From assembly GCA_902779315.1 (NCBI GenBank), contig CACZBC010000028.1, forward strand, positions 24,471 to 88,470: a stretch of 64,000 nucleotides of DNA, in the 5' to 3' direction. The first letter of the stretch is position 1. Every line of letters begins with the position of its first letter. The notes beneath the pieces were generated by a model, which saw only the letters and a list, made by a program, of their open reading frames with translations, did no database searches and was not told where the DNA came from. The DNA comes from an uncultured Bacteroidales bacterium. Its GTDB lineage: Bacteria; Bacteroidota; Bacteroidia; Bacteroidales; Bacteroidaceae. Shown here one piece after another: positions 11,964 to 55,113 of this stretch. Position numbers and translations under genes: made by a program.

Positions 11964-12085
11964 TTGTCTGCAAACGACTAACGTGAAGTTCGCCAACGTC
12001 ACACTAGTAAATGGCAATCGTCACACTATACGTTTGCGATCATAACACTATACGTTTGCAATCGTCGCACTATATGTTTTGCAGC
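11964..12085. repeat. 22-bp-period degenerate tandem array A
   Basis: A partial unit (11964-11975) is followed by full 22-bp units at 11976, 11998, 12020, 12042 and 12064. Most units read as a half GTCACACTATACG (or variants GTCGCACTA, ATAACACTA, GTCACACTAGT) and a half of the type TTTGCAATC/TTTGCGATC. It lies in the gap between divergent genes and inside the predicted leader of the downstream operon. The rest of the 308-bp gap (11818-12125) holds the two promoters. Confidence 0.9.
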
Positions 12086-12125
12086 GACTCTGGAAGGGTT
12101 CATAAACCAGAAAGCATAAGGTAAA

Positions 12126-13130
12126 ATGATAGAAGATCTGAAGAAGAAAGTACAAGCAACCTTAAAGTCCTCAGAAACAGAGGATTGGCTTGATTATCGC
12201 GTGGTTCGTCCGCTCAGTTATCTGTGGGCCCTGTTCTTCGCAAAACTCGACATTCACCCCAACACCGTTACCATCATCTCCATGATTATCGGAGCCGCAG
12301 CCAGCGTGTTCTTCATGCACGGCAGCTTCTACTACGAAGGATGGCACGGACTCCTGATGAACATCATCGGCGTACTGTTGCTCTGCCAGGCAGACATCTT
12401 CGATTGCACGGACGGACAGCTTGCCAGGATGACCGGAAAGAAGAGTCGTTTGGGCAGAATTCTCGATGGAATGGCCGGTTTTGTATGGTTCATCCCCATC
12501 TACGTCCTCTTGATGGTGCGCTTCTACAACCACCATTCTCTCGAATTCGGATGGCTTGGAATACCCGATACGGAACAGAACGCCCTCATCGCAACTGCGG
12601 TAGTCGTCGTCCTCGCACTCTATTCGGGCTTCGCCGGAATGGGCGGTCAGCAACGGCTTGCCGACTATTACATCCAGGTTCACCTCTTCCTCCTGAAAGG
12701 CGAGAAAGGCAGCGAACTCGACAACTCCCTCCAGCAACAGAAGGTTTACGACGAGACACCCGCCGAAGGGAATCGCCTCTGGAAGTATTTCCTCAAGACA
12801 TATATAGACTATACGCGCAAGCAGGAGAAGTCCACGCCTGAGTTCCAGAAACTCATGAGCACCTTGCGCGAGAAATATGGAAGTGCGGGAAATATGCCCG
12901 AAGAAGTGCGCGAGGAGCTTCATCGCGAGTCGAAAGCCATCATGCCCCTCAACGCGATGCTCACCTTCAACTTCCGTTCCGGCATGTTCTTCCTGTTCTG
13001 TCTCATCGACCTGCCTGTCTTCAATTTCCTCTTCGAAGCCATCTGTATGGGACTTCTCACATATTATATTAATCGCCGACACGAGGCATTCTGCCGCAGG
13101 GTTGCGGAAAAAGTAAGACTTGGAGCATGA
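12126..13130 (+). CDS. CDP-alcohol phosphatidyltransferase family protein
   Basis: A 334-residue membrane enzyme that would exchange CMP on a CDP-activated lipid or head group for an alcohol. The family motif DGxxAR is visible: D93-C-T-D96-G97-x-x-A100-R101, then G110-x-x-x-D114. The usual fourth aspartate four residues later is G118 (sequence LDGMAGF). Several hydrophobic segments precede and follow. A long charged stretch at about 195-270 is cytosolic. It overlaps the next gene by four bases (ATGA), indicating coupling to a flippase-like protein. Whether it makes phosphatidylinositol-type, phosphatidylethanolamine-type or an unusual lipid is unknown. Confidence 0.8.
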   Translation: MIEDLKKKVQATLKSSETEDWLDYRVVRPLSYLWALFFAKLDIHPNTVTIISMIIGAAASVFFMHGSFYYEGWHGLLMNIIGVLLLCQADIFDCTDGQLARMTGKKSRLGRILDGMAGFVWFIPIYVLLMVRFYNHHSLEFGWLGIPDTEQNALIATAVVVVLALYSGFAGMGGQQRLADYYIQVHLFLLKGEKGSELDNSLQQQKVYDETPAEGNRLWKYFLKTYIDYTRKQEKSTPEFQKLMSTLREKYGSAGNMPEEVREELHRESKAIMPLNAMLTFNFRSGMFFLFCLIDLPVFNFLFEAICMGLLTYYINRRHEAFCRRVAEKVRLGA

Positions 13131-14164
13131 AGTGGAGCTGGAATAACTTCTTCTTCTTCCTCGGCATCGTTTGTGTCGTGGTGATGCTCTTCACGTTCGA
13201 CGTCAGTTTCGTTGAGCTTTGGGGCCACATCTGCCGTGCAGGTTTGTGGCTCATCCCCATCGTGGGCATCTGGATTGTCGTTTACGGCATCAATGCTCTA
13301 GCGTGGATGTCGGTCATCCGGGGTAATACAAGTCCCGATGAAACCGTCGGTTTTTGGCGGATCTACAAGCTGACCATCACGGGTTATGCGCTCAACTATG
13401 CCACTCCGGTAGGCGGCTTGGGCGGAGAACCTTACCGAATCATGGAACTGAGCAAGGACATCTCGAAGCAGCACGCCACCTCCAGCGTCATCCTTTATGC
13501 GATGTTCCACGTCTTCGCGCACTTCTGGTTCTGGTTCACGTCCGTCTTCCTCTACCTTGCACTCGCGCTGGTGGGCGACTTGCCCTTCGATACGACGGTT
13601 GGCATCGTGCTTGGCATCATCGTGGTCTTCTGCCTGATAGCCTTCTACCTCTTCTATAGGGGATACAAGTACGGACTTGTCGTGAGGCTGATTCGCTGGA
13701 TAGGACATCTGCCTCGACTCAAAGGATGGAGCGACAGGTTTCTCGAAGCACATGCAGAAGCCCTGCATAATGTGGATTCACAAATCGCTGCCCTGCATCA
13801 GCAGAGCCGCAAGAACTTCTATGCAGCCTTGGGCCTCGAGTACCTCTCGCGTATCGTGCAGAGTGCCGAAGTGCTTTTCATGCTCCTGCTTTTCGGCATA
13901 GATGGTGGCGGAGGGTTCGACGGCATCACCCTCACCTTCCTTCACAGCATCCTTATTGTCTCGCTTACCACGCTTCTTTCGAACCTGATAGGCTTCCTCC
14001 CGATGCAGCTCGGCGTACAGGAAGGCGGTTTTGCTATCTCCACGGCAGCAATGGGCCTGACTATCGAGCAAGGCTTTTTTGTCAGCATCATCTGCCGTGT
14101 CCGCGAGATTATCTGGATTATCATCGGCATCGCCCTAATGAAGGTCGGCAATAAACGAGGGTAA
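13127..14164 (+). CDS. Flippase-like integral membrane protein (LPG-synthase TM domain / UPF0104)
   Basis: A 345-residue protein with about eight hydrophobic helices. The family motif region YALNYATPVGGLGGEPYRI (about 85-103) matches the lysylphosphatidylglycerol synthetase TM/AglD-like family, which has a putative lipid flippase role. A second hallmark is near the end (GFLPMQLGVQEGGF). The start overlaps the CDP-alcohol phosphotransferase gene by four bases. The context suggests that it moves or channels the lipid made by its partner. The soluble aminoacyl-transferase domain of MprF is absent. Confidence 0.8.
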   Translation: MKWSWNNFFFFLGIVCVVVMLFTFDVSFVELWGHICRAGLWLIPIVGIWIVVYGINALAWMSVIRGNTSPDETVGFWRIYKLTITGYALNYATPVGGLGGEPYRIMELSKDISKQHATSSVILYAMFHVFAHFWFWFTSVFLYLALALVGDLPFDTTVGIVLGIIVVFCLIAFYLFYRGYKYGLVVRLIRWIGHLPRLKGWSDRFLEAHAEALHNVDSQIAALHQQSRKNFYAALGLEYLSRIVQSAEVLFMLLLFGIDGGGGFDGITLTFLHSILIVSLTTLLSNLIGFLPMQLGVQEGGFAISTAAMGLTIEQGFFVSIICRVREIIWIIIGIALMKVGNKRG

Positions 14165-14247
14165 TGCGGATGCACTGCATCTGCATTACCGAGCGATAGC
14201 CGAGCTCGAACACAGTTCAAGGTCGGCAACAAACGAGAGTAAAGCAG
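14141..14247. repeat. Duplicated 3' end plus hairpin
   Basis: The 29 bp covering the flippase-like gene's end (14141-14169, starting AAGGTCGGCA) recur at 14219-14247 with five substitutions. Between them lies a hairpin at about 14161-14190 (GTAATGC...GCATTAC, with GATGCA/TGCATC inside). The second copy is non-coding, so this looks like a local duplication of a stop-codon region around a hairpin. Confidence 0.7.
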
Positions 14248-14259
14248 AATCAAACGATA

Positions 14260-14287
14260 AGCTCCCGCGTTTCACAACGCAGGAGCT
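14260..14287. terminator. Hairpin between convergent genes, likely terminator
   Basis: The stem AGCTCC-GCGTT ... AACGC-GGAGCT has a TCAC loop and one internal mismatch. It lacks a clean U-tract on either strand, so termination activity is only probable. It sits between the flippase-like gene and the oppositely oriented 14338-14937 gene. Confidence 0.5.
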
Positions 14288-14337
14288 ATATGGCGCCGAT
14301 ATTAATTCAAAAACTAACTAACAAGTTTTTCCTGATA

Positions 14338-14937
14338 TCAGTCTTTAGGGTAAAGCTTCTTGAAGGCCTCTGTCAGGGACTCCACCTCGGGCAGCAATGC
14401 CTTCAGTTCCTCCTCGTTCTGATTCTTGACGGCCGTCATGGCTTTCTCCAGCACATCTGTCAGCCGCTTGCAGTTGCCAGCGCCTGGCGACCATATTGTG
14501 GCGACACGAATATGGTTCCCAAAGAAGTAACGGGTACCGTCGAGTCCCCTCCGCTCGTCATTGAACATACATGTGGCTACGGTATGTTCTATCAGGTCGG
14601 AAAACATCACAGCCGTGGCCTTGTCTGTCTTGACCTCCATAGAATCCAACCTCAGTCTCGGCTCGCCCGGCTCGGCCTCCTTGTTCACCTCGCACCACTT
14701 CACCTGCAGCCGTTCGCTTCCCCCATAACCGTAATACACATACAGTGCAGAGGGGAAGCTGAATGAAGGGAATATGAGCATCTGCTGGATTGCTCTCTCG
14801 GACAGCCAAGTCCCGAAATACTTTTCTCCCCACAGCTTCTGCTGAGTTTGTGTCATAGGTTCCAGTCTGCTCTGGGCCTGTGCGCCAATGGCTGCCGCCA
14901 TCAGCAACGTCACTAATGTAATGATTCGCTTTTTCAT
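14338..14937 (-). CDS. Secreted/periplasmic protein of unknown function
   Basis: A 199-residue protein with a type I signal peptide (MKKRIITLVTLLMAAAIGAQAQ). The ATG at 14937 is preferred over an in-frame TTG two codons upstream. The mature part is mixed alpha/beta with no recognised domain; it has two Cys (one in a WCEV context) and a Lys/Glu-rich helical C-terminus. The gene follows the regulatory-like ORF on the same strand almost without a gap, so it may belong to the sigma-factor-linked operon. I do not recognise the family. Confidence 0.7.
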   Translation of the reverse strand: MKKRIITLVTLLMAAAIGAQAQSRLEPMTQTQQKLWGEKYFGTWLSERAIQQMLIFPSFSFPSALYVYYGYGGSERLQVKWCEVNKEAEPGEPRLRLDSMEVKTDKATAVMFSDLIEHTVATCMFNDERRGLDGTRYFFGNHIRVATIWSPGAGNCKRLTDVLEKAMTAVKNQNEEELKALLPEVESLTEAFKKLYPKD

Positions 14938-14939
14938 AT

Positions 14940-15698
14940 TCAAAATTTTAGACTTTCCTTCAAGCTTTTTAAGTTGTCATTAGGTAGGAGATAGATTGTT
15001 TGGAATGTGTCGGTTGGCTCTATGACGATGGTCTTATAACCAATATAAGTGAAGTGCATCTTGACGCCTGTGCGGGGAACCCAAAAGGCAAAGTTGCCCA
15101 AAGAGTCCGTCGTCTCGAATCCCCATATCTTCTTTTCTGGTTCAAATTGCAATATATGAATAATGGTATGGTTTAAAGGCTCGTCGTTTTCGTCATACAC
15201 TACGCCCGACACTCGGCGGCGGCTTGCTTTCAGTTCCTCGTGTTGGTCCATATAGTAGTCGCAGAGTGTGTCCTCCACGCAGATGTACTCTACGACGCCG
15301 TGCTTTGCTGCCTCTCCATACTTCTCGATGTAGCGTTGCTTGGCTTCCTCATTCATGTGTCTCATTACTCTGTCCAAACACAAGTGTTGCCCTTTTAAGT
15401 AGTCGCGACAAGACCTCCCGCCTAACCATTTGTTGTTTTCCTTTGGTTGAGGCACTCCGTTGACGAGGTAGAGGATGGAGTCATTGGGCGGGCTGTCATG
15501 TGAACCACCTATGGCGCCTAGGGGAAGAAGCCGTACCTCGTTTTCTTCGGGCACATATTTAGGCAAACCGGCGATTTGCTCTTGTGAGTTTCCTCGCAGC
15601 CGCATGTTGTAGCCGTTGTAGATGCATGACAAGGTTTTTGTCGGTGGGCGAGAACTCGAAGGACTTGTAGCCGGGTTGCTCGGCACGAAGCGTGACAT
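14940..15698 (-). pseudogene. Carboxypeptidase-regulatory-like fragment, probable continuation of the upstream gene
   Basis: The ORF carries a third copy of the repeat seen twice upstream: MRLRG at about residue 32, then SILYLVNGVPQP, KYGEAAKHGVVEYICVEDTLCDYYM and a carboxypeptidase-regulatory-like beta sandwich (RRRVSGVVYDENDEPLN...GNFAFWVPRTGVKMHFTYIGYK). The first about 30 residues are out-of-frame sequence of the neighbouring gene and look non-native. The true product probably begins at MRLRG or is joined in frame to the upstream ORF, whose end (DKNLVMHLQ) lies at the same place. No signal peptide is present. It is a frame-broken or split part of one larger protein. Confidence 0.6.
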
Positions 15699-17349
15699 CC
15701 TTTCTCGGAACCCAGAAGACGAAATGACCCGTCGAGTCGGTCGCAGCTCCTATAAAATCCTGTTCGACATGCACGTAGGCTTCCGTCAAAGGTTTGCCGT
15801 TGTTATCAAACACGTAGCCCTCAACTTTGGTGTACTTCTTCATCAGCTTCGGATGCTTGCGGACATAAGCGTCGCAATAGGTGTCGGGCACAACCTTTAT
15901 TTCTATCACGCCATACTTCGCGAGTCCGCCGTACTTCTCTGTAAACTTGCTGTCTTTGTGAACATACACGCTGTCAATCAGCAGGCCCTGCTGGGAAAAG
16001 TACCGAGGCATGTTTGTGTCCACGTCATCGATGGATTCACCAAATACTTGCCACTTTAATGAATCGGGCAGCGGCTCGCCATTCACCAGGATAAGCGTGG
16101 AGTCGATTCTGTCCTTGTCGCTTGGCCCGTCGCCTGTTCCCCTAAGTCGCATGGTGGTACCTGAACCCAAATCTGCCGAAGTGGGAACGATAGTAGCATT
16201 AGCTATCATGCGTTGAAGTTCTTCCCTTTCCTCTGGAGTAGATGCCCAGATGGCGATTGCACCGTTATTACAAGGTATCTTTATGTTTTGCAAAAGACCC
16301 TGCTCATTGAGGTACTCTTCAATACGTCTGTCGATTTCTTCTGATGTCATACCGCGTGAGTCAAACAGAGTCTTGCCGTTGACCACCACGAGAAAAGAAT
16401 CCGTTTTGCCAATCTGGTCGATGACGCTATCTCCTATTCCCCGAAGGTGCATAGTGGTGCCTGAACCTAAGTCTGCCGAAGCGATGTCCCGTTCTGCAAT
16501 CTGCCCTTGAAGAGCCTGGTCAACAGACTCGAAGGCGAGATCTTCAAGTCCCGTAGTGGCCGGGGCATCAGCTTTCGCTAAAGCCAGTTCTTTGCGAGGA
16601 GCAATGACGGGCTTTGAGACTTCTGCAACTACATCCTTTTCAGGCACTCTTGCAGGCTCGGACACATGCTCGGGCTGGGTAGGCTCTACTTGTGCCATGA
16701 GCGGCTGCTCTGTCTGTTCCTTTCCTATATTATATATAATGAGCAACGCCACGGATGCTGCGATGCCGATGCCCAAAGCCCAAGCGAGTGCAGAGTGTCT
16801 CTTTGTCTCCTTGCCGATGACTTCCTGCTCAAAGCGTGCCCACTCCTTGTCCACGTCGGGCATGCCGATTCTCTTGTCGATGTCTTCCGTCTTCATGTTA
16901 CTTTGCAATTTTAAGGGTTTCTCTGATTCTATGCCAAGTACGGAAGCTGTTTCCGCATAGGTCATCTCTTCCTCGTAGTGAAGCTGGAGCACGCGGCGGT
17001 CTTGCTCTGTGAGGTTGTCGTCGATGACTTTCTGCAACTGCTTCAGCAACTCTTCCCGCTCCTCATCCTTCTGCCAGGCCGTTTCCTTCTGAAGTTCTTC
17101 CTTCAGCCGTCTTTGCAGTTGTCTGTCTCGCAGGATGTGCAGGCATTGGTTCCTCGTTGCAGAGAGCAGATAGCCTCGGATGCTTTCCGTGGCTATTTCA
17201 GGCTTGCCTCTCCACATTTGGACAAACACCTGATGTACGGCATCCTTGGCATCCTCGGCATTCTCTACCAAGGAGAACGCCATGCGATACATGTGCAGAT
17301 AGCTGTCCTTGAAGAGCCGCTCGAACTGTTGTTTGCTGTAATCCATCAT
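15559..17349 (-). CDS. ECF sigma factor fused to a membrane-anchored regulatory-like protein
   Basis: A 596-residue ORF. Residues 1-142 are a sigma-70 ECF factor: region 2 (about 8-75, YRMAFSLVENAEDAKDAVHQVF, RGYLLSATRNQCL) and the start of region 4 (TEQDRRVLQLHYEEEMTYAETASVLGI). Region 4 stops after the first helix of the helix-turn-helix, so the -35 recognition helix is missing. M152 (KTEDIDKR) looks like the original start of a second gene: a cytosolic stretch, one TM helix (187-207), then a periplasmic part with two repeats (SADLGSGTTM-HLRG/RLRG, FLVVVNGKTL / LILVNGEPLP) and a carboxypeptidase-regulatory-like domain (about 525-580). Sigma/anti-sigma pairs in this order are common in Bacteroidota, and here a deletion may have fused them. 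Sigma activity is doubtful. Confidence 0.75.
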   Translation of the reverse strand: MMDYSKQQFERLFKDSYLHMYRMAFSLVENAEDAKDAVHQVFVQMWRGKPEIATESIRGYLLSATRNQCLHILRDRQLQRRLKEELQKETAWQKDEEREELLKQLQKVIDDNLTEQDRRVLQLHYEEEMTYAETASVLGIESEKPLKLQSNMKTEDIDKRIGMPDVDKEWARFEQEVIGKETKRHSALAWALGIGIAASVALLIIYNIGKEQTEQPLMAQVEPTQPEHVSEPARVPEKDVVAEVSKPVIAPRKELALAKADAPATTGLEDLAFESVDQALQGQIAERDIASADLGSGTTMHLRGIGDSVIDQIGKTDSFLVVVNGKTLFDSRGMTSEEIDRRIEEYLNEQGLLQNIKIPCNNGAIAIWASTPEEREELQRMIANATIVPTSADLGSGTTMRLRGTGDGPSDKDRIDSTLILVNGEPLPDSLKWQVFGESIDDVDTNMPRYFSQQGLLIDSVYVHKDSKFTEKYGGLAKYGVIEIKVVPDTYCDAYVRKHPKLMKKYTKVEGYVFDNNGKPLTEAYVHVEQDFIGAATDSTGHFVFWVPRKDVTLRAEQPGYKSFEFSPTDKNLVMHLQRLQHAAARKLTRANRRFA

Positions 17350-17436
17350 GTCTTTTTGGTCTCGTTACATATATAAGACCATCGAAAAGGCAAATCAAAT
17401 ACCCCCTAATTGCAATATTTAAGCAAAGATGTTTCC

Positions 17437-18432
17437 TTATATCTTTCCCAGGATGCGGTCCATCACCCAATTGACGCTGGTGGCGCTGATGCTGTCGGCA
17501 GTGCAGATGCTGCTTTGCTGCAGGTGTTCCACTACGCTTTGAATGAGTGGAAGCTGAACGTGTTCGGGGTTTTCGACATGAAATTCCTGTCGTCCTTGCT
17601 CATTACGCATGACGATGGGTTCGTAGGTGAAGACGGAGAAATGCAGTTGCCCACGTTCGCCGATTAGTTCGATACGGTCGGTGCGGGCACTCTCGTGGCT
17701 GACAAAACACCACGAACCGCTGCCAGGCAACCCGTCGGCAAACTGGAAGGCAGCACTTACGGTGTCCTCCGTCTCATAAAGTCCGCCGCGATTACTGCTG
17801 AAACCCTTTGCTCTGACGATAGGCCCGAATATTTCTTGGAGCAGGTCAATCTGGTGAGGAGCTAAATCATAGAAGTAACCTCCGCCGGCAATGTCGCGCT
17901 GCACACGCCAGGGAAGGGCTGTGCTGTTATAGTCGAGGTCGCGTGGTGGACAGGCAAAGCGTATCTGCACAGACGTCACTTTGCCGATGGCACCGTTCTC
18001 CACCAGTTCCTTTACCTTTTGGAAGTAGGGCAGATTGCGCCTGTAATAGGCTACAAAACAAGGGACATGGGTCTGCTCACTGACTCGGTTAATGCGTTGA
18101 CAATCAAGGTAACTGCTTGCTAACGGCTTCTCTACATAGACGGGCTTTCCTGCCTTCATTGCCATGATAGCATAGGTGGCGTGCGAAGAAGGAGGCGTCG
18201 CTATATAGATGGCGTTTACTTCAGGGTCGTTGATGAGTTGCTGAGCATCCGTGTACCAGCGAGGGATGTTATGCCTTTCTGCATAGGATGAAGCCTTTTC
18301 CTTGCTGCGACTCATTACAGCCCAAATGCGTGAGCCTGCCACAAGATTGAAGGCAGGTCCGCTCTTTTTCTCGGTCACTTCACCACATCCGATGAAGCCC
18401 CATCGTATCTCTTTATATATGGGTTGCGGCAT
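17437..18432 (-). CDS. Gfo/Idh/MocA-family NAD(P)-dependent oxidoreductase
   Basis: A 331-residue protein with an N-terminal Rossmann fold (WGFIGCGEVTEKK, residues 11-23), the conserved EKPLA motif (about 99-103) and a C-terminal alpha/beta domain with GGGYFYDLAPHQIDLL containing the usual catalytic Asp/His region. Family enzymes oxidise or reduce sugars and polyols; the substrate is unknown. The ATG directly follows the stop of the porin gene on the same strand, so it is the last gene of the operon with porin, a small membrane protein and beta-galactosidase, which suggests sugar catabolism. Confidence 0.9.
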   Translation of the reverse strand: MPQPIYKEIRWGFIGCGEVTEKKSGPAFNLVAGSRIWAVMSRSKEKASSYAERHNIPRWYTDAQQLINDPEVNAIYIATPPSSHATYAIMAMKAGKPVYVEKPLASSYLDCQRINRVSEQTHVPCFVAYYRRNLPYFQKVKELVENGAIGKVTSVQIRFACPPRDLDYNSTALPWRVQRDIAGGGYFYDLAPHQIDLLQEIFGPIVRAKGFSSNRGGLYETEDTVSAAFQFADGLPGSGSWCFVSHESARTDRIELIGERGQLHFSVFTYEPIVMRNEQGRQEFHVENPEHVQLPLIQSVVEHLQQSSICTADSISATSVNWVMDRILGKI

Positions 18433-20685: not shown

Positions 20686-20688
20686 GCT

Positions 20689-24560: not shown

Positions 24561-24607
24561 ACAAAAACAAGAAAAACTCGTTTTTCTTGTAAGGACTTCG
24601 TGGCATG

Positions 24608-24770
24608 TTGGCAAACAACACCAGTGTCGTTGGCAAACTTCAAACGTGAACTTTGCAAACTTCAAACGTGAACTTTGCAAACTTCAAACGTGACGATTGC
24701 AAACGTCACACTATACGATTGCAATCGTCGCACTATACAAATGCAAACGTAACACTATACGATTGCCATC
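24608..24770. repeat. 22-bp-period degenerate tandem array B
   Basis: Seven full units start at 24617, 24639, 24661, 24683, 24705, 24727 and 24749, after a partial copy. Units 2-3 are identical (TTCAAACGTGAAC + TTTGCAAAC), unit 4 is a hybrid, and units 5-7 switch to the GTCACACTATACG + ATTGCAATC type. Thus two sequence subtypes share one register. The 18 bp to the stop of the transglycosylase gene (24789) may be a further decayed unit. With the promoter it accounts for the 290-bp gap. Confidence 0.9.
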
Positions 24771-24788
24771 GTGGCTGTAGTCGTTCCC

Positions 24789-31748: not shown

Positions 31749-32292
31749 CGAAAATTTTAGCAAAGAAGAAAGAATAAAGGAGATTTATTTGAGCAGAACA
31801 TGCAAAAACACTTGCGAAAATTATCCGCATTCCACATGTTTTGTAAAGATATTTCCGCAGAAAAGAAGAGACTCTGAAAGCCATTTCCTCAGACTTATCG
31901 TTTGAAAGCAGAAGAGCAGGAACGCAATCTTCGCCCTCGAAACGGGTCCAAATAGGGGAGAAAAAGAGCCATTTGTAACACTTTGATATAGAAGTGGTTC
32001 CGATGCGACTCGCGAAATCGGAAAATATATACAGTCAAGTTGGCCGATTTAACGTGTTACGATTGCAATTTACTAGTGTGACGTTTGCGTTTATCTAGTG
32101 TCACGATTGCCATCATCTAACGTGACATTTTGAAACATCACACTAGTCGCGAGCCCTTTTAGCCTTTCAGGTCAGGAATCCTGCCGTTCCAAGTCCGCCG
32201 ATTTTGTCAAGATATTTCCATCTTTCGGGTAAATTTCCTGCCTGTTAAAACTCAAATAATTCTCCGTTCTGCGCTTTTAATTCTCAAATTAT
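31749..32292. other. Non-coding gap between the V-ATPase D gene and the polysaccharide operon
   Basis: No credible ORF is seen in this stretch. It holds the 22-bp array C (32045-32148), the -7 box of the V-ATPase operon at its left edge and the promoter of the four-helix-bundle gene at its right edge. An AT-rich direct repeat (CTCAAATAATT near 32250, CTCAAATTATT near 32284) is also present. Confidence 0.6.
32045..32148. repeat. 22-bp-period degenerate tandem array C
   Basis: A partial copy (32045-32060) precedes units at 32061, 32083, 32105 and 32127, each starting GATTGC or GTTTGC (the last is decayed) and containing CTAGTGTGAC or similar. The register and period are the same as in the other arrays. 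Confidence 0.85.
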
Positions 32293-39299: not shown

Positions 39300-39342
39300 A
39301 AAGTTGGCTTCTCTGCCTGACTTAAAGAGGTAGGCTAGGGAT

Positions 39343-39428
39343 GATTGAAAACAACACACGTGACGATTGCAAACGTCACGTTAGTCGTTGGCGATTATCA
39401 CGTGTGACGTTTTCAATGTTAACGTGCC
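39343..39428. repeat. 22-bp-period degenerate tandem array D
   Basis: Units start at 39343, 39365, 39387 and 39409 (partial), each with GATTGC/GTTGGC/GTTTTC at the start and CACGTGTGAC-type ends. It occupies most of the gap between two convergent genes. Confidence 0.85.
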
Positions 39429-39463
39429 TAGTTTCTTTTGTTGACTTGTGTCGAGGGGAAATG

Positions 39464-44665: not shown

Positions 44666-44709
44666 AAAACAACCTGATGTGCCGCCGATCACCCAAAACA
44701 TACAGGAAC

Positions 44710-44806
44710 GTTTGCAAACGTATAGTGTTATGATGGCAAACGTATAGTGCGACGATTGCGATTTACTAGTGTGACGTTTGCGATTTAACAGTGTGACGTT
44801 TTCAGG
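44710..44806. repeat. 22-bp-period degenerate tandem array E
   Basis: Units start at 44710, 44732, 44754 and 44776, with a partial one to 44806. Unit types: GTTTGCAAACGTATAGTG, GATGGCAAACGTATAGTG, GATTGCGATTTACTAGTG, GTTTGCGATTTAACAGTG. The last base is next to the engB stop codon (44807). Confidence 0.9.
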
Positions 44807-46737: not shown

Positions 46738-46753
46738 TTGTTCTAATTTTGTG

Positions 46754-46761
46754 CAAAGATA
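46754..46761 (-). promoter_or_regulatory. -7 promoter box of the DUF3078-engB operon
   Basis: TATCTTTG on the minus strand, 17 nt before the DUF3078 gene start (46737). Confidence 0.65.
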
Positions 46762-46804
46762 CGAATAAAAGAAGAATTAATCGTGAAGAATGAAGATTTT
46801 TTTG

Positions 46805-46812
46805 TACTTTTG
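46805..46812 (+). promoter_or_regulatory. -7 promoter box of yidC
   Basis: TACTTTTG, 30 nt before the ATG at 46843, divergent from the DUF3078 promoter. Confidence 0.65.
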
Positions 46813-46842
46813 TACGCCTAAATCATTAAACACCTAACCTAT

Positions 46843-48696
46843 ATGGATAAAAATACAATAACAGGATTTATTCTTATTGCCCTTGTCGTAATCGGTTTCA
46901 GCTGGTACAGTCAGCCCAGCAAGGAAGAGTTGGAAGCGATGGCCAGACAGGACAGCATCGCTGCCGTGGAGCAGCAGAAACAGGCGGAAGCAGAGAAGAA
47001 GGCCGAAGAGGTTGTGGCTTCTCCAGCAACCCCAGACAGCAGTTCTCTCTTCTTCTCGCAGAGTAACGGAGAAGGAGAGCGTATATTGCTTCAGAATAAT
47101 AAGGTAAAGGTTGGCATCAACAGCAAGGGTGCTGTCGTCGAGGATGCTGAGATAATCGGATACAAGAGCCGTCGCAGGGATGGTGATGTCGTGATTCTCG
47201 GCAAAGAAGACGCTTCGATGAAGCTGACTTTACCACTCAAGCAAGAGAACCTTTGCCTGACAGACCTCGTCTTCAACGTAGCGGAAAAGACCGACTCGAG
47301 TGTTGTCTTCGTCGCTGAACAAGAAGGAAAGCAGTTGCAGGTAAGCTATACGCTTCGTCCCAATGCCTATATGCTCGACATGAACATCGCGTCTCAGGGG
47401 CTGGAGGGAATGGCTATGCCTGGCGAAACGGCTCTGCTCCTCGATTGGAAGGCAACAGTCCTGCAACAAGAGAAGGGTAGGGACTTCGAGAACCGCTACA
47501 GCTCCCTTACCTACAAAAGGCAGGGCAAAGGCGTGAAGAAACTCAGCGAGATGAAGGACGACAGCAAGGAGCCCGAGGAAGCTCTCGAGTGGATTGCATT
47601 CAAGAACCAGTTCTTCAGCGCCGTCCTCATTGCGGACAAGCCCATGACGAAGGCTTCTCTCTCCTCCACCCAAGCTGACGAAAAAGATGCGGATTACCTG
47701 AAAGAGTATGAAGCATCGGCACAGATTCCGTTCGATGTGACAGGCAAGGAATCCACTCATTTGCAGATGTACCTTGGTCCGAACGATTTCCATATCCTCA
47801 AGGCACACAGCAAGATGACGGCTTACGGCGCAGATGCCGACCTCGACGAACTCGTCTATCTCGGTTGGTGGATATTCCGCTTCATCAATCGTTGGTCAAT
47901 CCTTTATATCTTCGACTGGCTCAAGGCAATGGGTCTGCCGATGGGTATCGTCCTTTTGCTCTTGACGATTATTATCAAGGTGCTTGTCTTCCCAACTCAG
48001 AAGAAGAGCTATCTGAGCAGCGCCAAAATGCGTGTCCTCAAGCCGAAGCTCGACGAAATAGGCAAGCAATATCCTAATCCCGACCAGGCTATGCAGAAGC
48101 AACAGGCCATGATGCAAGTTTACAGTCAGTATGGCGTCAGTCCCATGGGTGGCTGTTTGCCTATGCTCATACAGATGCCTATCTGGATAGCGATGTTCAA
48201 CTTCATTCCTAATGCCATCGATTTGCGTGGAGAAAGCTTCCTTTGGGCTAGCGACCTCAGTGCCTACGACGACCCAATCCGTTGGGGGACAAGTCTTCCG
48301 CTCATCGGCAACCACTTGAGTCTCTTCTGTATCCTCTTTAGTGCAACGAACCTTATCAACACTTGGATATCGATGCGCCAACAGCAGAACCAGTTCACAG
48401 GCGAGCAAGCACAGCAAATGAAGATGATGCAATGGATGATGTACCTGATGCCTCTGATGTTCTTCTTCTGGTTTAATAACTACTCGAGCGGTTTGAGCTA
48501 CTTCTACTTCATATCGGGTTTGCTTAACATCGTAACGATGTGGTACCTTCGTTGGAAGACCGATGACAAGAAGTTGCTTGCCGGCTTGGAGGCTTATCGC
48601 GAGCAACACAAGAACGATCCCAAGAAGGTGTCCGGCCTGCAAGCACGCCTCGAGGCCTTACAGAAGATGCAGCAGGAACAGGCGAAACGAAGATAA
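46843..48696 (+). CDS. yidC: Membrane protein insertase YidC
   Basis: A 617-residue inner-membrane insertase. N-terminal TM (about 7-21), a periplasmic beta domain (about 80-340), then the C-terminal TM core (about 350-600) with KLDEIGKQYPNPDQAMQKQQAMMQVY, MGGCLPMLIQMPIWIAMF and YLMPLMFFFWFNNYSSGL. It inserts membrane proteins alone or with SecYEG. The typical Bacteroidota length is about 600-620. It is followed by a short gap with heptamer-like ATTAAAG repeats just before the next gene. Confidence 0.96.
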   Translation: MDKNTITGFILIALVVIGFSWYSQPSKEELEAMARQDSIAAVEQQKQAEAEKKAEEVVASPATPDSSSLFFSQSNGEGERILLQNNKVKVGINSKGAVVEDAEIIGYKSRRRDGDVVILGKEDASMKLTLPLKQENLCLTDLVFNVAEKTDSSVVFVAEQEGKQLQVSYTLRPNAYMLDMNIASQGLEGMAMPGETALLLDWKATVLQQEKGRDFENRYSSLTYKRQGKGVKKLSEMKDDSKEPEEALEWIAFKNQFFSAVLIADKPMTKASLSSTQADEKDADYLKEYEASAQIPFDVTGKESTHLQMYLGPNDFHILKAHSKMTAYGADADLDELVYLGWWIFRFINRWSILYIFDWLKAMGLPMGIVLLLLTIIIKVLVFPTQKKSYLSSAKMRVLKPKLDEIGKQYPNPDQAMQKQQAMMQVYSQYGVSPMGGCLPMLIQMPIWIAMFNFIPNAIDLRGESFLWASDLSAYDDPIRWGTSLPLIGNHLSLFCILFSATNLINTWISMRQQQNQFTGEQAQQMKMMQWMMYLMPLMFFFWFNNYSSGLSYFYFISGLLNIVTMWYLRWKTDDKKLLAGLEAYREQHKNDPKKVSGLQARLEALQKMQQEQAKRR

Positions 48697-48727
48697 TTGA
48701 TTAAAGACTAAAGATTAAGGATTAAAG

Positions 48728-50969
48728 ATGAGACACAGTAAGCATTCATTCTTTCATTTTTTCATTTTCTCATTATTACTCATGTCTTGCGGTACGCAAA
48801 AAGAAAGTGACAAGGTCAACATAGAAAAGCAAACCGTTCAGCTTGAGGGCGACCTCATGACGCCTGAGGCTCTTTGGGCAATGAGCCGTATAAGTGGCTA
48901 TCAGGCATCGCCCGACGGAGAGCACATCGCCTTCCAGATGGGCTATTACAGCGTGGCGGAGAACAAAAGCCATCAGGTTCTTTGGATGATGAACGCTGAT
49001 GGCAGCGAGCAGAAGCAACTGACAAATGATGCCGAGAACGAGACCGACGTGCAGTGGCTCGACAACGAAACCATTGCTTTTCTCCGCGAGGGCGAGGTCT
49101 GGAAAATGAATATAAACGGCAAGAGCCGCAAACAAATGACCAAGACCGACGGCCAGGTGGAGGGCTTCCTCTTCGCTCCCGACGGCAAGAAGGCTATCCT
49201 CTTGAAGAGCATCGACTTTAATGAAATCATCCAGAAGAACCCCGAAGACCTGCCAAAAGCTACCGGCCGCGTCGTGAACGACCTGATGTATCGCCATTGG
49301 GACCACTATGTGGAGAGCATCCAGCATCCCTTCGTCATAGATTTCGAAACGGGTGAGGAGTTCGATATCCTCGATGGAGAACCCTTCGAGTGCCCCATGG
49401 AGCCCTTCGGCGGCATTGAGCAATTGGCTTGGAGCCCAGACTCGAAGTTCATCGCCTTTACCTGCCGCTGCAAGACTGGCTTGGAATATAGCATCTCGAC
49501 CGACAGCGACATCTTCCTTTATGACGTTGAAGCTCGCGACCTCAACTCTATTGAGCACACAAAGAACCTGTGTAAGCAGTTCAGAGAGTTTGGTATACTT
49601 GGCTGCAATGAGATGGCTTATCATGGCGATGGAAAGCAGTTGAATCCATGGAAAGCAGTTGAATCCCACCAAGACACTGAAAGATCAGGAAATCAACGTT
49701 AAGCATAAGGGTGAGAACGTGGGCTACGACCTCAATCCCAAGTTCTCGCCCGACGGCAAGTATGTGGCTTGGCTCTCTATGGAGCGCGACGGCTACGAGA
49801 GCGACCGCCAGCGTCTCTGCATCTACGACCTGAAAGAGAACACCAAGACCTACGTCACGGAGAGCCTCGACTCCAGCGTCGATGACTTCTGCTGGGCGCC
49901 TGATTCCTATACATTATATTATATAGCGGTTTGGCACGCAACGGAGAATCTTTACAAGACGAACCTCAAGGGCGAAGTCAAGCAACTCAGCAACAACTGG
50001 GCCGACTTTGGTTCCGTGCAGATGCTTAATGAGAAGGAACTTGTTGCAGAGCGTCACAGCATCACGGAACCTGCTGACCTCTATGTGGTTAATCCTGGCG
50101 ACACGATTGCCGACACACAGATAAAGCAGCTGACCGAAGTGAACAAGGACATCCTCGACCAGCTTGCGAAGCCCACCATCGAACAGCGTTGGGTGAAGAC
50201 AACCGACGGTCAGGAGATGCTGACTTGGGTCATCTTGCCTCCTCACTTTGATGCTTCGAAGAAATATCCCACATTGCTTTTCTGCGAAGGCGGTCCTCAG
50301 AGTGCCGTCAGTCAGTTCTGGAGCTACCGTTGGAACTTTATGATAATGGCTTCGCAGGGTTATGTCTTGATTGCTCCGAACCGTCGCGGAGTGCCGGGCT
50401 TCGGGCAAGAATGGCTTGAGGAAATCAGCGGAGACTGGACCGGACAGTGCATGAAGGACTATCTTTCCGCGATAGACGATGCTGTGGAGAATCTTCCTTA
50501 CGTCGACAAGGACCGTCTCGGAGCCGTCGGCGCCTCGTTTGGCGGCTTCTCGGTCTATTATCTGGCAGGTCATCACGAAGGCCGCTTCAAATGTTTCATC
50601 GCACATGATGGAGCGTTTAACCTCGAGGCAATGTACACCGAGACTGAGGAAAACTGGTTCTCCAACTGGGAGTACGACGATGCTTACTGGAACAAAGACC
50701 AGACCGCACGTGCCCGAAAGACCTACGAGAACAGTCCTCATCGCTTTGTTGACAAATGGGACACACCCATCCTCTGCATACATGGCGAGAAGGATTACCG
50801 CATCAACGCCACCCAAGGCATGAGTGCCTTCAACGCTGCTCGCATGCGAGGCATCGAAGCACAACTGCTCATCTTCCCCGACGAGAACCATTGGGTGCTC
50901 AAACCACAAAACGGAATCCTCTGGCAACGGACCTATTTTGCTTGGCTCGACAAGTGGCTGAAGAAGTAG
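48728..50969 (+). pseudogene. DPP5-like dipeptidyl peptidase (S9), frame broken by a 19-bp duplication
   Basis: The N-terminal frame starts as a probable lipoprotein (FSLLLMSC, C18) and has the beta-propeller repeats of S9 peptidases (SRISGYQASPDGEHIAFQ, QLAWSPDSKFIAFTC). After about 49650 it runs into a wrong frame. The rest of the propeller and the hydrolase domain continue in another frame (from about 49659): RRGVPGFGQEWLEEISGDWTG, GASFGGFS (catalytic Ser), HGEKDYR (Asp), DENHWVL (His). The breaking event is a tandem duplication of ATGGAAAGCAGTTGAATCC (49631-49649, 49650-49668). Removing one copy restores one uninterrupted protein. The function is release of dipeptides from oligopeptides. 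Confidence 0.9.
49631..49668. repeat. 19-bp tandem duplication in the peptidase gene
   Basis: Two perfect adjacent copies of ATGGAAAGCAGTTGAATCC. Nineteen is not divisible by three, so the frame shifts. Confidence 0.97.
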
Positions 50970-51012
50970 GATAATAGGAAATAAAGATAATAAGAAAATA
51001 AGAAAAAAGGTT

Positions 51013-52571
51013 ATGACACAAGCAATTCAAAAGACTTTACGCGACAGCGCCGGTATGCGCTGGACGGCTCTTCTGCTCTTGGCACTCGCCATGTTTTGCA
51101 GTTACATCTTTATGGACATTCTGTCTCCCATTAAGGATTTGATGCAGGAGACTCGTGGATGGGACAGCACAGCCTTCGGAACGATGCAAGGCTCCGAGGT
51201 GTTCCTGAACGTTTTTGCTTTCTTCCTCATCTTCGCAGGCATCATTCTCGACAAGATGGGCGTGCGTTGGACGAGAGTTTCATTGGAAGCGAATTGGCAA
51301 CATGGTTCACCAATCATTTGAACTACATTCCTGTGTTCGAGGAACTTGGAGTGTCGCCTTTCTATGAAGGGATGCCTGCCTCCGCTAAGTTTGCAGCCTG
51401 CGGTTTCATGATATTTGGCTGTGGTGTGGAGATGGCCGGCATTACCGTCAGTCGCGGTATCGTCAAGTGGTTCAAGGGCAGAGAAATGGCTCTGGCAATG
51501 GGTTCGGAGATGGCTCTTGCCCGTCTTGGCGTAGCAACTTGCATGATTTTCTCGCCCTTCTTTGCTCGTTTGGGTGGTCAAGTCAGTGTTTCTCGCTCGG
51601 TTGCCTTTGGCGTAGTGCTGATGTGCATTGCTCTCATCATGAGTATTGTTTACTTCTTTATGGATAGGAAACTCGACGCGCAGACTGGTGAGGCAGAGGA
51701 GAAGGACGATCCCTTCAAGATCAGCGACTTGGGACAAATCCTTACCTCGAGTGGCTTCTGGCTTGTCGCCCTGCTTTGCGTGCTCTATTATAGCGCTATC
51801 TTCCCCTTCCAGAAGTACGCCGTGAACATGCTGCAATGCAACCTCACACTCGTAGCGCCCGATGCTAATTCCTTCTGGGCAAAGCCTGATGTGACCATCG
51901 TTCAGTACCTCATCATGCTCTTTGTGGCTGCAACTGGTTTTGCAAGCAACTTCCAGAAGAAAGCCGGAGCCAAGTACGGTTTGCTTTGCGTCAGCATCCT
52001 CGCCCTCGTTACCTATTGTTATATGGGTTACATGCGACAGTCTGCCGAGAGCATCTTCGCGGTGTTCCCACTCCTGGCCGTGCTTATCACACCTATTTTG
52101 GGCAGTTACGTCGACCACAAAGGTAAGGCAGCTACGATGCTCATTCTGGGCTCGTTGCTCCTCATCTTCTGCCATCTGACCTTTGCCTTCGTGTTGCCTT
52201 TGTTCAAGGGTTCAGCCATCGGAGGCATCGCGATTGCCTACATCACCATTCTTGTGCTGGGTTCCTCGTTCTCTCTGGTGCCTGCATCGTTGTGGCCAAG
52301 CGTGCCTAAACTGGTGGATGCCAAGGTGATAGGTTCCGCTTATGCACTCATCTTCTGGATTCAGAACATAGGTCTCTGGCTCTTCCCATTGCTTATCGGC
52401 AAGGTTCTGGACAAGACAAATCCTGGCGTTACCGACCCGACTCAGTTCAACTACACAGCTCCGCTTGTCATGTTGGCTGGTTTGGGCGTAGCAGCTCTCT
52501 TGCTTGGTTTCGTCCTGAAGGTCGTTGACAAGAAGAAAGGTCTGGGCCTCGAGGAGCCGAATATCAAGTAA
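51013..52571 (+). pseudogene. MFSD1-like MFS transporter (putative dipeptide carrier), internal deletion
   Basis: The first frame covers TM1-TM2 (LLLALAMFCSYIFMDILSPI, GIILDKMGVRWT). At about 51271 the frame shifts, and the remainder (ESFIGSELATWFTNHLNYIPVF, then MALAMGSEMALARLG, about nine further TMs) continues in another frame to 52571. Homologues have about 20 residues here between GVRWT and the ESFIG-type motif (one TM helix), so a short deletion with frame change is likely. The VKWFKG-type motif near residue 140 resembles MFSD1/peptide MFS carriers. It lies 43 bp after the peptidase gene, so peptide cleavage and dipeptide uptake would be coupled. Confidence 0.8.
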
Positions 52572-52626
52572 GGAAGGCTCGTTTCCTAAGCTGCTGATTT
52601 TCAGGCGGCGTAATATACTCGAAAAG

Positions 52627-52702
52627 TTCACGTGTGAAAATGCTAAACTTCACACGTGAACTTTGCAAACTTCACGTGTGATGTTGGCCAACTTCACACG
52701 CC
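52627..52702. repeat. 22-bp-period degenerate tandem array F
   Basis: Units start at 52627, 52649 and 52671 with a partial unit ending at 52702, of the type TTCACACGTGAAC + TTTGCAAAC. It contains palindromic CACGTG cores. It lies in the gap before the GH92 gene. Confidence 0.85.
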
Positions 52703-52720
52703 ATGTTAATAAACCACCTT

Positions 52721-55015
52721 ATGCAAAACAGATTCCTCTCCCTTTTCTGCGGGTTCGTGTTAAGTGTCATATCGATTAATGCGACAAGCCAACCCGACTT
52801 GGTCCGCTATGTAAATACGCTGCAGGGCACGCTTTCGAACTTTGGCCTTTCACACGGAAACACCTTCCCAGCAACGGCTATGCCGTATGCTCAGCACATG
52901 TGGACGCCCCAGACGGGACCGAATGGCGAGGGTTTTAAGTACCTGTATGAGTCGGATCAAATCAGAGGATTTGGTCAAAGCCATCAGCCTTCGCCTTGGG
53001 TTAGCGACTATGCCGTCTATACTTTCTTCCCTGAAACAGGCAGTTTGGAAGTCGATCCGGATAAGCGAGGTGCGCGTTTCTGCCATTGCAAGGAGGTCGG
53101 GCAGCCTCATTACTATAGTGTCGCTTTTGACAACGGCATTCGAACAGAGATGGCACCTACAGAGAGAGGTGTGCATCTTCGCTTTTCGTATCCCAAGAAA
53201 CAGGACGCTTTCCTTGTTATCGACGGCTATACCGCTGAGTCGGAAATCCATGTAAATCAGGAGAAAAGACAAGTGACGGGCTGGGTCAACAACCAGCGTT
53301 TCGTCAATCATAGCGAGAACTTCCGATGCTTTTTCGTGATTCAGTTCGACCAGCCGATACTCGATTACGGCACATGGGAAGGGGAGAACAAACAGACTTT
53401 CCCGCATGAAAAAGACGGCCAAGGCAAGCGTTTCGGCTGTTATCTCAAGTTCAAGCCGGGCTGTAAGGTGCAGGCTCGGGCTGCTTCAAGCTACATTTCT
53501 GAGGAACAAGCCTGGCAGAACTGGCGCTCGGAACTTGGTGCGGACAAAACTCTGGAACAGACAAAGAAGCGGGGCTTCGAGACGTGGAATGCCCTGCTGA
53601 ACCGCATCCGTGTGGAAGGAGGCAGCGAAGAGCAGCTGCGAACCTTTTATAGTTGTCTGTTCAGAGCAAACTTGTTCTCTCGCAAGTTCTATGAAATCAG
53701 GTCGGACGGCACACCTTATTATTATAGTCCTTACGACGGAAAAATCCACGAGGGTTATATGCTGACCGACAACGGCTTTTGGGATACCTTCCGAAGCCAG
53801 TTCCCCTTGACAAATATCCTGCATCCTATTCAACAGGGACAATACATGCAAGCCCTTCTTGACGCGCAAAAGCAGTTCGGATGGCTGCCTGCATGGTCTT
53901 GTCCGGGCGAGACGGGAGGCATGTGTGGCAACCATAGTATCTCGCTTTTGGCAGATGCGTGGGCAAAGGGGATACGCTCTTTCGACCCGGATTCTGCGTT
54001 AACTGCCTATGCTCATGAGGCTATGAACAAAGGACCTCTTGGTGGAGCGAACGGTCGAGCCGGTTGGAAAGAGTATTGGCAACTCGGTTATGTCACCTTC
54101 CCAGAGTCTCACGGAAGCGTGACACAAACGCTGGAGTATGCTTATGACGACTGGTGCGCTTGGAAACTTGCCCGCAGTTGTGGCAACACTTTTTACGAGA
54201 AGATATTCGAAAGAGTGCTCCATAACTACCTGAATCTCTGGGATCCGGAGACGAAGTTCTTTAGGGGAAGAGGCAAGGATGGCAAGTGGAGTGTGGAGCC
54301 TTTCGACCCGCTTGTTTGGGGCGGACCGTATACCGAAGGTAATGCCTGGCACTATATCTGGAGCGTTTTCCACGATGTGCAAGGTCTTATAGAACTCTTC
54401 GGCTCGGATGAAGCCTTTGTGGAGAAGATGGATAGCGTCTTTTCGCAGCCAAGTACGGTTAAGCCCGGCTGGTATGGCGGCAAGATTCACGAGATGACGG
54501 AAATGGAGATAGCAGGCATGGGACAGTATGCTCATGGCAATCAACCCATTCAGCACATGCCTTATCTCTACAGTTATGCGGGCCAGCCTTGGAAGACTCA
54601 GTACTGGGTTCGCCAGATTATGGAGCGCCTTTACCACAGTACGCCAGACGGTTTCCCAGGTGATGAGGACCAAGGCGGCATGAGTTCGTGGTATGTTCTG
54701 TCTGCTCTCGGACTTTATGCAGTTACCCCCGGAACAGACCAATACGTACTTGGCAGCCCTGTTTTCCGTAAGGCAACCATCACGATGGAGAACGGGAAGC
54801 AGTTTGTCATCGAGGCGAAGGACAACTCGGAGCAGAATGTCTATGTCGATAGTCGAAGCCTGAATGGTCAGCCTCTCTCGCGTAACTACATCACTTATAG
54901 CGAGTTGGCTGCAGGAGGAACACTCCAGTTGCAGATGTCTGATAAGCCGAACAAGCAGTTGGGAACTGCCAAGAAGGATGCTCCCTACAGCCTGACTTTT
55001 GAACTAGGCAAGTGA
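52721..55015 (+). CDS. GH92 alpha-1,2-mannosidase, secreted
   Basis: A 764-residue secreted enzyme. The ATG at 52721 gives a clean signal peptide (MQNRFLSLFCGFVLSVISINATSQ); an upstream in-frame ATG at 52703 follows array F directly and is less likely. GH92 features: N-terminal beta-sandwich (YVNTLQGTLSNFGLSHGNTFPATAMPY), then an (alpha/alpha)6 domain with LTDNGFWDTFRSQFPL, PETGGMCGNHS-like acidic catalytic region and PGDEDQGGMSSWYV. It removes mannose from N-glycans using Ca2+. No lipobox or T9SS tail is seen. It ends at array G. Confidence 0.95.
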   Translation: MQNRFLSLFCGFVLSVISINATSQPDLVRYVNTLQGTLSNFGLSHGNTFPATAMPYAQHMWTPQTGPNGEGFKYLYESDQIRGFGQSHQPSPWVSDYAVYTFFPETGSLEVDPDKRGARFCHCKEVGQPHYYSVAFDNGIRTEMAPTERGVHLRFSYPKKQDAFLVIDGYTAESEIHVNQEKRQVTGWVNNQRFVNHSENFRCFFVIQFDQPILDYGTWEGENKQTFPHEKDGQGKRFGCYLKFKPGCKVQARAASSYISEEQAWQNWRSELGADKTLEQTKKRGFETWNALLNRIRVEGGSEEQLRTFYSCLFRANLFSRKFYEIRSDGTPYYYSPYDGKIHEGYMLTDNGFWDTFRSQFPLTNILHPIQQGQYMQALLDAQKQFGWLPAWSCPGETGGMCGNHSISLLADAWAKGIRSFDPDSALTAYAHEAMNKGPLGGANGRAGWKEYWQLGYVTFPESHGSVTQTLEYAYDDWCAWKLARSCGNTFYEKIFERVLHNYLNLWDPETKFFRGRGKDGKWSVEPFDPLVWGGPYTEGNAWHYIWSVFHDVQGLIELFGSDEAFVEKMDSVFSQPSTVKPGWYGGKIHEMTEMEIAGMGQYAHGNQPIQHMPYLYSYAGQPWKTQYWVRQIMERLYHSTPDGFPGDEDQGGMSSWYVLSALGLYAVTPGTDQYVLGSPVFRKATITMENGKQFVIEAKDNSEQNVYVDSRSLNGQPLSRNYITYSELAAGGTLQLQMSDKPNKQLGTAKKDAPYSLTFELGK

Positions 55016-55016
55016 T

Positions 55017-55113
55017 GATGGCAAACGTATAGTGTGACGATGGCAAACGTATAGTGCCACGATTGCAATCGTATAGTGTTACGTTTGCGATTTAATAGTG
55101 CCACGTTTTCAAA
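55017..55113. repeat. 22-bp-period degenerate tandem array G filling a convergent gap
   Basis: Units start at 55017, 55039, 55061 and 55083, with a final partial one from 55105. The stop codons lie at 55013-55015 on the plus strand and at 55114-55116 on the minus strand, so the array occupies the entire intergenic region. Confidence 0.93.

Follow-up and report, generated by a model that had tools for sequence, protein, structure and literature searches.

The stretch of DNA analysed here, hereafter the window, comprises 64,000 nucleotides of an uncultured Bacteroidales bacterium of the Bacteroidaceae (G000:C28:24471-88470; G numbers denote genomes, and G000 is a draft assembly, 84% complete, whose 107 contigs total 2.83 Mb), and several of its intergenic gaps contain tandem arrays with a period of 22 bp. 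A reading made from the sequence alone had named seven such gaps, all of which were confirmed to hold arrays, and had missed an eighth array, which is built from a second vocabulary of unit sequences. Degenerate or terminal half-units carry the lattices called by a half-site weight matrix to roughly the limits given in that reading. The arrays of the window are the following:

5758..5823, no strand assigned: array 8, second vocabulary, CTCCTTCATGTAGGAGCAATCA / TTGCTCCTTCATGTAGGAGCAA, three 22-bp units.
11960..12085 (matrix 11960-12069), plus strand: array 1, AC orientation, 5 full units and terminal half-units, upstream of the gene at 12126 (CDP-alcohol phosphatidyltransferase domain).
24601..24776, plus strand: array 2, 8 units in two vocabularies, TTCAAACGTGAAC then GTCACACTATACG.
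32033..32150 (matrix 32033-32142), minus strand: array 3, 5 units, junctions 1 AC and 3 GT.
39337..39430 (matrix 39337-39424), no strand assigned: array 4, 4 units, between convergent genes.
44704..44806 (matrix 44704-44791), minus strand: array 5, GT orientation, 4 units.
52623..52702 (matrix 52633-52698), no strand assigned: array 6, more palindromic vocabulary, TTCACACGTGAA / TTTGCAAA.
55011..55113 (matrix 55011-55098), minus strand: array 7, between two convergent genes, filling the space from one stop codon to the other.

In total, 464 kb of G000 were examined (the window and 20 stretches of 20 kb each; 16% of the draft genome). The weight matrix was trained on this DNA and its matches were scored blind to spacing; an array was defined as a chain of at least two units passing a score filter, and the same DNA read backwards, without that filter, served as a control. 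The matrix found 114 chains, i.e. 51 single matches and 63 chains of at least two units, and 62 arrays passed the filter, compared with 19 chains in the control (18 single matches and one chain of two units). Neighbouring matches at most 70 bp apart (n = 201) were separated by 22 bp in 198 cases and by 44, 7 and 23 bp in one case each, which places 199 of the 201 pairs on the lattice (22 or 44 bp); the reversed control gave a single neighbouring pair in all. Likewise, the pattern TTTGCAAACGTCACACTATACG with up to three mismatches matched its own genome 132 times and its reversed form 0 times. A motif-free scan of intergenic gaps, covering all periods between 14 and 40 bp, found period 22 in 49 of 172 gaps (28%) and any other period in at most two. 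The arrays are thus no one-off occurrence, since 62 of them in 464 kb keep the 22-bp register; they are dispersed in intergenic DNA in many copies and with alternating orientation, and 7 of the 62 sit inside crudely called open reading frames (ORFs).

The interchangeable halves from which the sequence-only reading had assembled the units turned out to be 11-bp half-sites in alternating orientation. Two inverted half-sites (consensus about CAAWCGTCAMR) form the 22-bp unit, and units abut without spacers, unlike a CRISPR array with its unique spacers between repeats. An A centre, TTTG-CAAA, with a central GC in 211 of 288 cases, alternates with a B centre, i.e. every second dyad centre, which is an asymmetric AC or GT in 220 of 226 junctions and is frequently of the types CACA-CTAT, CACA-CTAG and CACA-CGTG; A occurs on both B-centre flanks once among the 220 AC/GT junctions. 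Both orientations are present, as had been claimed: 22 of the 62 arrays are AC-only, 16 GT-only, 18 contain both and 6 contain another junction as well. In the AC orientation, CTAG units stand ahead of CTAT units in 17 of the 18 arrays holding both. An AAAAC consensus lies just outside the called array ends, which gives ends of the form AAAAC...GTTTT; complementarity of the outermost called half-sites is at the level of chance (z 0.0), but these lie inside the AAAAC ends. Neighbouring units are more similar than random units (0.708 vs 0.541), and units have therefore been duplicated locally. A promoter array was considered as well: TACGTTTG in CTATACGTTTG resembles the Bacteroidetes -7 box, whose spacing to an upstream TTTG is 19-21, and the TTTG spacing of 14 bp does not fit it.

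The fate of the arrays was followed at 15 gaps (window 6001-25900 and 38001-57900) in five relatives (G054, G058, G039, G085 and G088), an array being counted as present when the period-22 score reached 30 of 44. Six of these gaps hold arrays in G000, and the relatives' gaps reached the threshold in 24 of 26 comparisons; the two below it scored 27 (G085 and G088 at gap 44430), and two of the 24 positives (G054 and G088 at 52572) fall in gaps of 2.7-3.2 kb, where the match need not be the orthologous array. Of the nine array-free gaps, seven lacked period 22 in every aligned relative (scores up to 20 of 44), for one no relative could be aligned, and the ninth, 17350-17436, contains an array in G058, G085 and G088 and none in G000 and G039, G054 being unaligned. 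At most of the orthologous gaps compared, arrays are retained as their vocabulary turns over. At gap 55016-55113, all on 22 bp, G000, G054 and G058 carry CGTATAGTGTTACGTTTGC-type units, G085 and G088 GTGGCGTGCCATCTTTGCAAAC and G039 TTAACACGTTAACTTTGCAAAC; the array 55011..55113 is thus present in all five relatives in species-specific vocabulary, with a gap longer by 22 bp in G085 and by 9 bp in G039. The gap 39300-39463 is 22 bp longer in both G054 and G058, holds an unrelated 22-bp array, CCCCTATAGGGC / CCCTATAGGGG, in G085 and G088, and a TTAACACGTTAA array in G039. The array 11960..12085 has orthologs in G054, G058 and G039, where the gap is longer by 22, 44 and 0 bp, respectively, and in G085 and G088 the gap 11779-12125 contains an unrelated 22-bp vocabulary, again a CCCTATAGGGG array. 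The gap of array 24601..24776 measures 291 bp in G000 and G054 and 225 bp in G058 and G039. Array 44704..44806 is retained in G054, G058 and G039, with a weaker lattice in G085 and G088 (27 of 44), and array 52623..52702 gave repeated short matches in G039, G085 and G088 among the matches listed. Replacement is also seen between G000 and G054, which are 91-95% identical over five matched blocks of more than 5 kb: in gap 5737-5910 they carry different three-unit arrays between the same flanks, that of G054 consisting of TTGCANNNTCR half-sites, and G058 has one G000-type unit.

Two of these gaps also differ by segments outside the lattice. About 263 bp at window 44430-44703, adjoining the array at 44704, are absent from G054 and G058 and contain inverted repeats (TGTTGCAGTGTTGCAGTTGTTGCAGTT ... 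AACTGCAACAACTGCAACACTGCAACA); they look like a recent insertion of the type of a miniature inverted-repeat transposable element (MITE). The gap 52572-52702 is 131 bp long in G000, and its orthologs measure 2.7-3.2 kb in G054 and G088 (L128, L133); a gene-sized segment was either inserted or lost beside the array.

Arrays grow and shrink by whole units among close species, as the comparison of array lengths proposed in the sequence-only reading revealed. Gap lengths in G000/G054/G058 and in G085/G088 differ by multiples of 22 bp (347/369/391; 274/296; 164/186; 291/225; 98/120), and the same holds for further array gaps in close species (422/444; 238/194; 131/109). The second-vocabulary gap at 5737 differs by +21 bp in G054 and -22 bp in G058. 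Exceptions among close species are the insertion of 263 bp that adjoins the array at 44704 in G000 and is separate from it, a gap of 475 vs 253 bp in which the arrays are non-orthologous, and one of 687 vs 445 bp that consists mostly of other repeats. At the latter (L065:3251-3937 in G000), repeated partial tRNA-like segments (GTGGGCGCTGAGGGATTCG...) are visible by eye, one of which is present in G054, and these seem to account for most of the 242-bp length difference. Whole uncut gaps of close species were aligned in 15 comparisons, excluding L058:15585, whose arrays are not orthologous (neither of the 2 units aligned), and L012:1478 (a repeat of L065:3251). Within the lattice and 11 bp on either side of it, six indels measured 22 bp and three 44 bp, and there was one compensating 3/3 pair; of the 17 indels in the remainder of these gaps, a single one (220) is a multiple of 22, and in array-free gaps of the same species 14 of 15 indels were not multiples of 22. 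Substitutions between orthologs peak at half-site positions 2 and 6 (20 and 27 of 130), the other nine positions showing 4 to 11 of 130. The on-lattice spacing of 199 of 201 pairs and the whole-unit indels support the earlier statement that spacing is kept more strictly than sequence; the register is the invariant of the arrays.

Arrays at different loci resemble each other closely. Every one of the 62 arrays in G000 matches another of the 62 (for instance with 92.6% over 122 bp), and 127 of 5079 array matches reach at least 20 bp past the array; one pair has common flanks, i.e. a larger duplication, and one pair represents two parts of a single locus. These array-to-array matches point to copying or conversion between loci.

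The sequence-only reading had suspected a new Prevotella-type repeat class, which is too narrow: the vocabulary of G000 is abundant in only three species, while the lattice occurs genus-wide and in five further genera. Among 139 genomes of the genus, this vocabulary is abundant in G000, G054 and G058 (132, 92 and 106 matches), has 1 or 2 matches in five others and none in the remainder. An exact-pattern scan of named genomes, from which the window's own records may have been omitted, placed it in 23 stretches of three metagenome-assembled Bacteroidaceae, RGIG10220 (yak rumen), RGIG9745 (yak omasum) and Tb.RUG.125. The vocabulary-free scan was applied to 40 genomes of the genus (first 20 kb of contig 1; 686 kb, 282 gaps), five of which have known G000-type matches (G010, G039, G070, G085, G088). 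It found period 22 in 22 gaps of 16 genomes; the other 26 periods occurred in 1.6 gaps on average and in at most 10 (period 21, in 7 genomes), and this runner-up is a multiple (3x7) of common 7-bp repeats. G039 and G088 supply 4 of the 22 gaps, and the 35 genomes without known G000-type matches contribute 18 gaps in 14 genomes. In eleven other genomes of the family, five of which had been picked for a pattern match at positions other than those scanned, period 22 occurred in 2 of 91 gaps and other periods in at most one; the outgroup of 14 Bacteroidota gave 1 of 174 gaps, and E. coli K-12 gave 0 of 41.

Units are mostly unrelated between species, e.g. GTTTCTGCAGCAGAAACTTTTA (G001), CAACACAGCGTGCTGTGTGGGG (G007), TTGCATCTACATGTACATGCAA (G027) and ACTTAAGTGTTTCTTGAGTTTC (G043), and several vocabularies coexist in G112, where 11 of 39 gaps reach period 22 (threshold 30 of 44). 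G027 and G112 have one array family in common, and three-unit elements of 66 bp of the type TTGNANNTACATGTANNTTCAA, a separate family, were seen in both species, in G112 at L175, L246, L248 and L249 and in G027 at L152. Five further genera of the family possess lattices of their own: G318 (TTTGCAAAGAAAACCGGTTTTC), G280 (AAACGTTTCCGTTTCTACGATC), G322, G181 and G153. Since G318 consists of 4 contigs and G280 of a single one, the lattices are no artefact of fragmented assemblies. A 1.5-kb stretch without called genes that holds 22-bp arrays is present twice in G280 (L256, G280:C1:1208201-1210200, and L257), the inverted copies being 98.4% identical and about 0.9 Mb apart. Outside the G000/G054/G058 clade, 25 of 50 arrays showed dyad symmetry at p < 0.05, in a test set that includes stretches picked for matches and several arrays of one family. 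An origin as phage or plasmid cargo was rejected for the one array and the one pattern tried: array 24601-24776 matched none of 50,697 phage records and none of 72,556 plasmid records, and one exact pattern was not found in viral contigs.

Our tentative explanation, held with somewhat less than even confidence, is that the arrays are a phased dyad lattice bound by a putative dimeric DNA-binding protein and spread and resized by in-register recombination. The arrays are dispersed, chromosomal and non-coding, and what they conserve is a lattice of dyad half-sites spaced by 11 bp, with two half-sites in each 22-bp unit. A dimeric protein, or a related set of proteins, would bind at every helical turn with its orientation alternating; a small indel would then break the lattice, while substitutions would only tune it; recombination or gene conversion may homogenise the arrays within a genome. 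Binding may be cooperative, and the putative protein may serve the host, perhaps by separating neighbouring transcription or supercoiling units, a role also ascribed to bacterial interspersed mosaic elements (BIMEs). In-register recombination between arrays would account for their homogenisation and for the 22-bp steps, and a reader in need of phased half-sites would account for the missing small indels and for the period shared by unrelated vocabularies. We favour the combination because both the replacement in place and the scarcity of indels need explaining.

Several observations weigh against a protein-bound lattice. No reader protein was found, no phylogenetic-pattern search having been made, and several unrelated vocabularies per genome would need several readers or loose specificity. 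The information content of the half-sites in G000 is spread over most positions and not over one helix face, and a one-face protein contact was rejected in the absence of a simple 11-bp face pattern. Arrays overall are substituted no less than array-free gaps of equal length (7.7% vs 6.2%), and the sequence as a whole is therefore not more constrained. Half of the foreign arrays (the remaining 25 of 50) show no significant dyad symmetry. Whole gaps of more distant relatives do not always differ by multiples of 22 bp (164 vs 144/121; 347 vs 274; 98 vs 107), and the indel events are few, partly shared among related species and not independent. Finally, copying alone could explain the stereotyped unit order and the high similarity between loci.

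Close behind ranks a selfish or neutral version, to which we would give about one chance in three: a dispersed minisatellite with AAAAC...GTTTT ends and an internal 22-bp array would spread by transposition or recombination without any host function, and either the mobilising enzyme or in-register recombination would fix its period at 22 bp. Such an element fits the AAAAC ends, the match of each of the 62 arrays to another of them, with 127 of 5079 matches extending by at least 20 bp, the unit order kept in 17 of 18 arrays and the local duplication evident from the likeness of neighbouring units (0.708 vs 0.541), and it also fits the array that is present at gap 17350-17436 in G058, G085 and G088 and missing from G000 and G039, as well as the array-bearing 1.5-kb region duplicated at 98.4% in a one-contig genome. 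However, no target-site duplication could be read by eye at that single gain/loss site, arrays are retained at orthologous gaps in 24 of 26 comparisons, unrelated vocabularies have period 22 in common, and a neutral element should gather small indels, of which almost none were observed.

A wider version of the protein-based explanation is considerably less likely than not: the arrays may be a system of the whole family Bacteroidaceae, in which a conserved machine that binds or recombines 11-bp half-sites maintains and rewrites them, so that the 22-bp register would be heritable and the sequence a rapidly changing species dialect replaced in place at hundreds of loci.

An element acting at the RNA level, with transcribed hairpins serving as terminators or stabilisers of 3' ends, is improbable. 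The sequence-only reading had considered that an RNA might read the arrays, and conserved pairing did not bear this out: in G000, the arms match worse than reshuffled partners (z -4.4 across B, -3.4 across A, -4.0 nested), i.e. there is no conserved arm pairing. This result holds for G000 only, and perfect or near-perfect palindromes, which would suit hairpins, exist in some relatives (G027, G026). Predicted RNA folding is indeed stronger in arrays (mean z -2.4, 124 strands of 62 arrays) than in 87 other gaps (-1.2), but dyad-rich DNA would yield this anyway. Terminator-like sites in 20 kb were at the level of shuffled sequence (18 vs 17.8), and one of them lies in an array (39358-39381). Gene context was counted for 49 arrays, after removal of 7 inside called ORFs and 7 at stretch edges (one both, 13 rows): 30 lie in tandem, 11 in convergent and 8 in divergent gaps, the available gaps of at least 60 bp (crude gene calls) being 85, 34 and 40. 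All gap types including divergent ones are thus occupied, which counts against an RNA-level element. Proximity to stop codons, which is frequent, would suit it. In tandem gaps, 20 arrays are nearer to the stop and 10 nearer to the start (p = 0.10; median distances 23 and 112 bp), which is only suggestive of a 3'-end specificity. In Rfam, searched for the window, the sole match above the gathering score was a cobalamin riboswitch (RF00174, 94.5 bits, window 2195-2394, upstream of the ORF at 2432), and none lay over the window arrays.

Equally unlikely is a purely structural origin, in which flexible pyrimidine-purine steps every 11 bp would bend the DNA round a general protein such as gyrase or HU, making the period matter and not the sequence. 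Such steps are flexible, the helical repeat of supercoiled DNA in vivo is near 11 bp, centres such as CACG, CATG, TATA and ACGT contain them as read from the sequence, and the period stays while vocabularies change; however, the vocabulary within a species is more rule-bound (AC/GT centre in 220 of 226) than general bending needs, and the spacing never relaxes to 21 bp (0 of 201 neighbouring matches).

Nine proteins adjoining arrays look ordinary, one of which has no Pfam match, and the array at 11960..12085 probably lies in the leader of the gene at 12126. The gap at window 14165-14337, like L180, contains a larger repeat (CGGTAATAAACGAGGGTAAAGC...) with a length difference of 87 bp between G000 and G054.

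The sequence-only reading knew of no described element like these arrays, and none was found in open-licence papers, which leave most subscription papers uncovered, or in Rfam for the window; in the papers listed, none of the wordings "22-bp periodicity", "22-bp repeat" or "22-bp tandem repeat" occurs. The repetitive extragenic palindromic (REP) sequences and BIMEs of enterobacteria are short palindromic units in alternating orientation that form regularly spaced clusters, often in more than 100 copies (PMC2817692), and REP clusters occupy extragenic space (PMC3733652). The arrays described here also consist of short dyad units in alternating orientation that are clustered and intergenic, but unlike BIMEs, REPs and REPINs they have a fixed 22-bp period, no spacer and, in G000, arms not selected to pair. 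A search for the Y1 domain (PF01797) of the REP-associated tyrosine transposase (RAYT) in 22 genomes gave no match in 16, including G000, G054, G058, G039, G085, G088, G318, G322 and G280, and matches over the cut-off in six (G027, G001 and G112, which hold 22-bp arrays, and G007, G070 and G181); behind these negatives stand genomes of differing completeness (G000 84%; G280 and G318 99%). A RAYT/REPIN mobiliser was thus rejected for the six compared species and for G318, G322 and G280, and arm pairing below expectation together with the lack of Y1 in the six compared species leaves the hairpin and REP/REPIN readings unsupported.

Porphyromonas gingivalis belongs to the same bacterial order, and its BrickBuilt element bears a likeness to the arrays in being dispersed and in containing tandem units about two helical turns long. 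BrickBuilt is described as a MITE with an internal 23-nt tandem array and terminal inverted repeats, forming a single family, furnished with leader and tail segments, that occurs in P. gingivalis and has matches in P. gulae (PMC4596501). It was rejected as a match, its unit AGAYCATARTATCCTCTCRTRTG being unrelated and 23 nt long, while the period of 22 recurs here across many unrelated vocabularies and several genera. PINSR of Prevotella intermedia and P. nigrescens is an intergenic repeat of 188 bp, of which two strains hold 177 and 184 copies; roughly three quarters of the regions are common to both, and the repeat lacks terminal inverted repeats (PMC4755523). It is likewise intergenic and present in many copies, but differs, by its description, in being one 188-bp consensus. 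Plasmid iterons are repeats of about 22 bp in helix register that are bound by one protein; they are confined to origins, whereas the arrays are scattered across the genome and switch orientation every 11 bp.

A repeat class that is defined by its period and not by its sequence evades standard searches for repeats or motifs, and this may explain why no description was found. The arrays offer a clean test of the concerted evolution of dispersed repeats in bacteria, and they may serve as bait for finding a putative chromosome-binding or recombining protein in this family.

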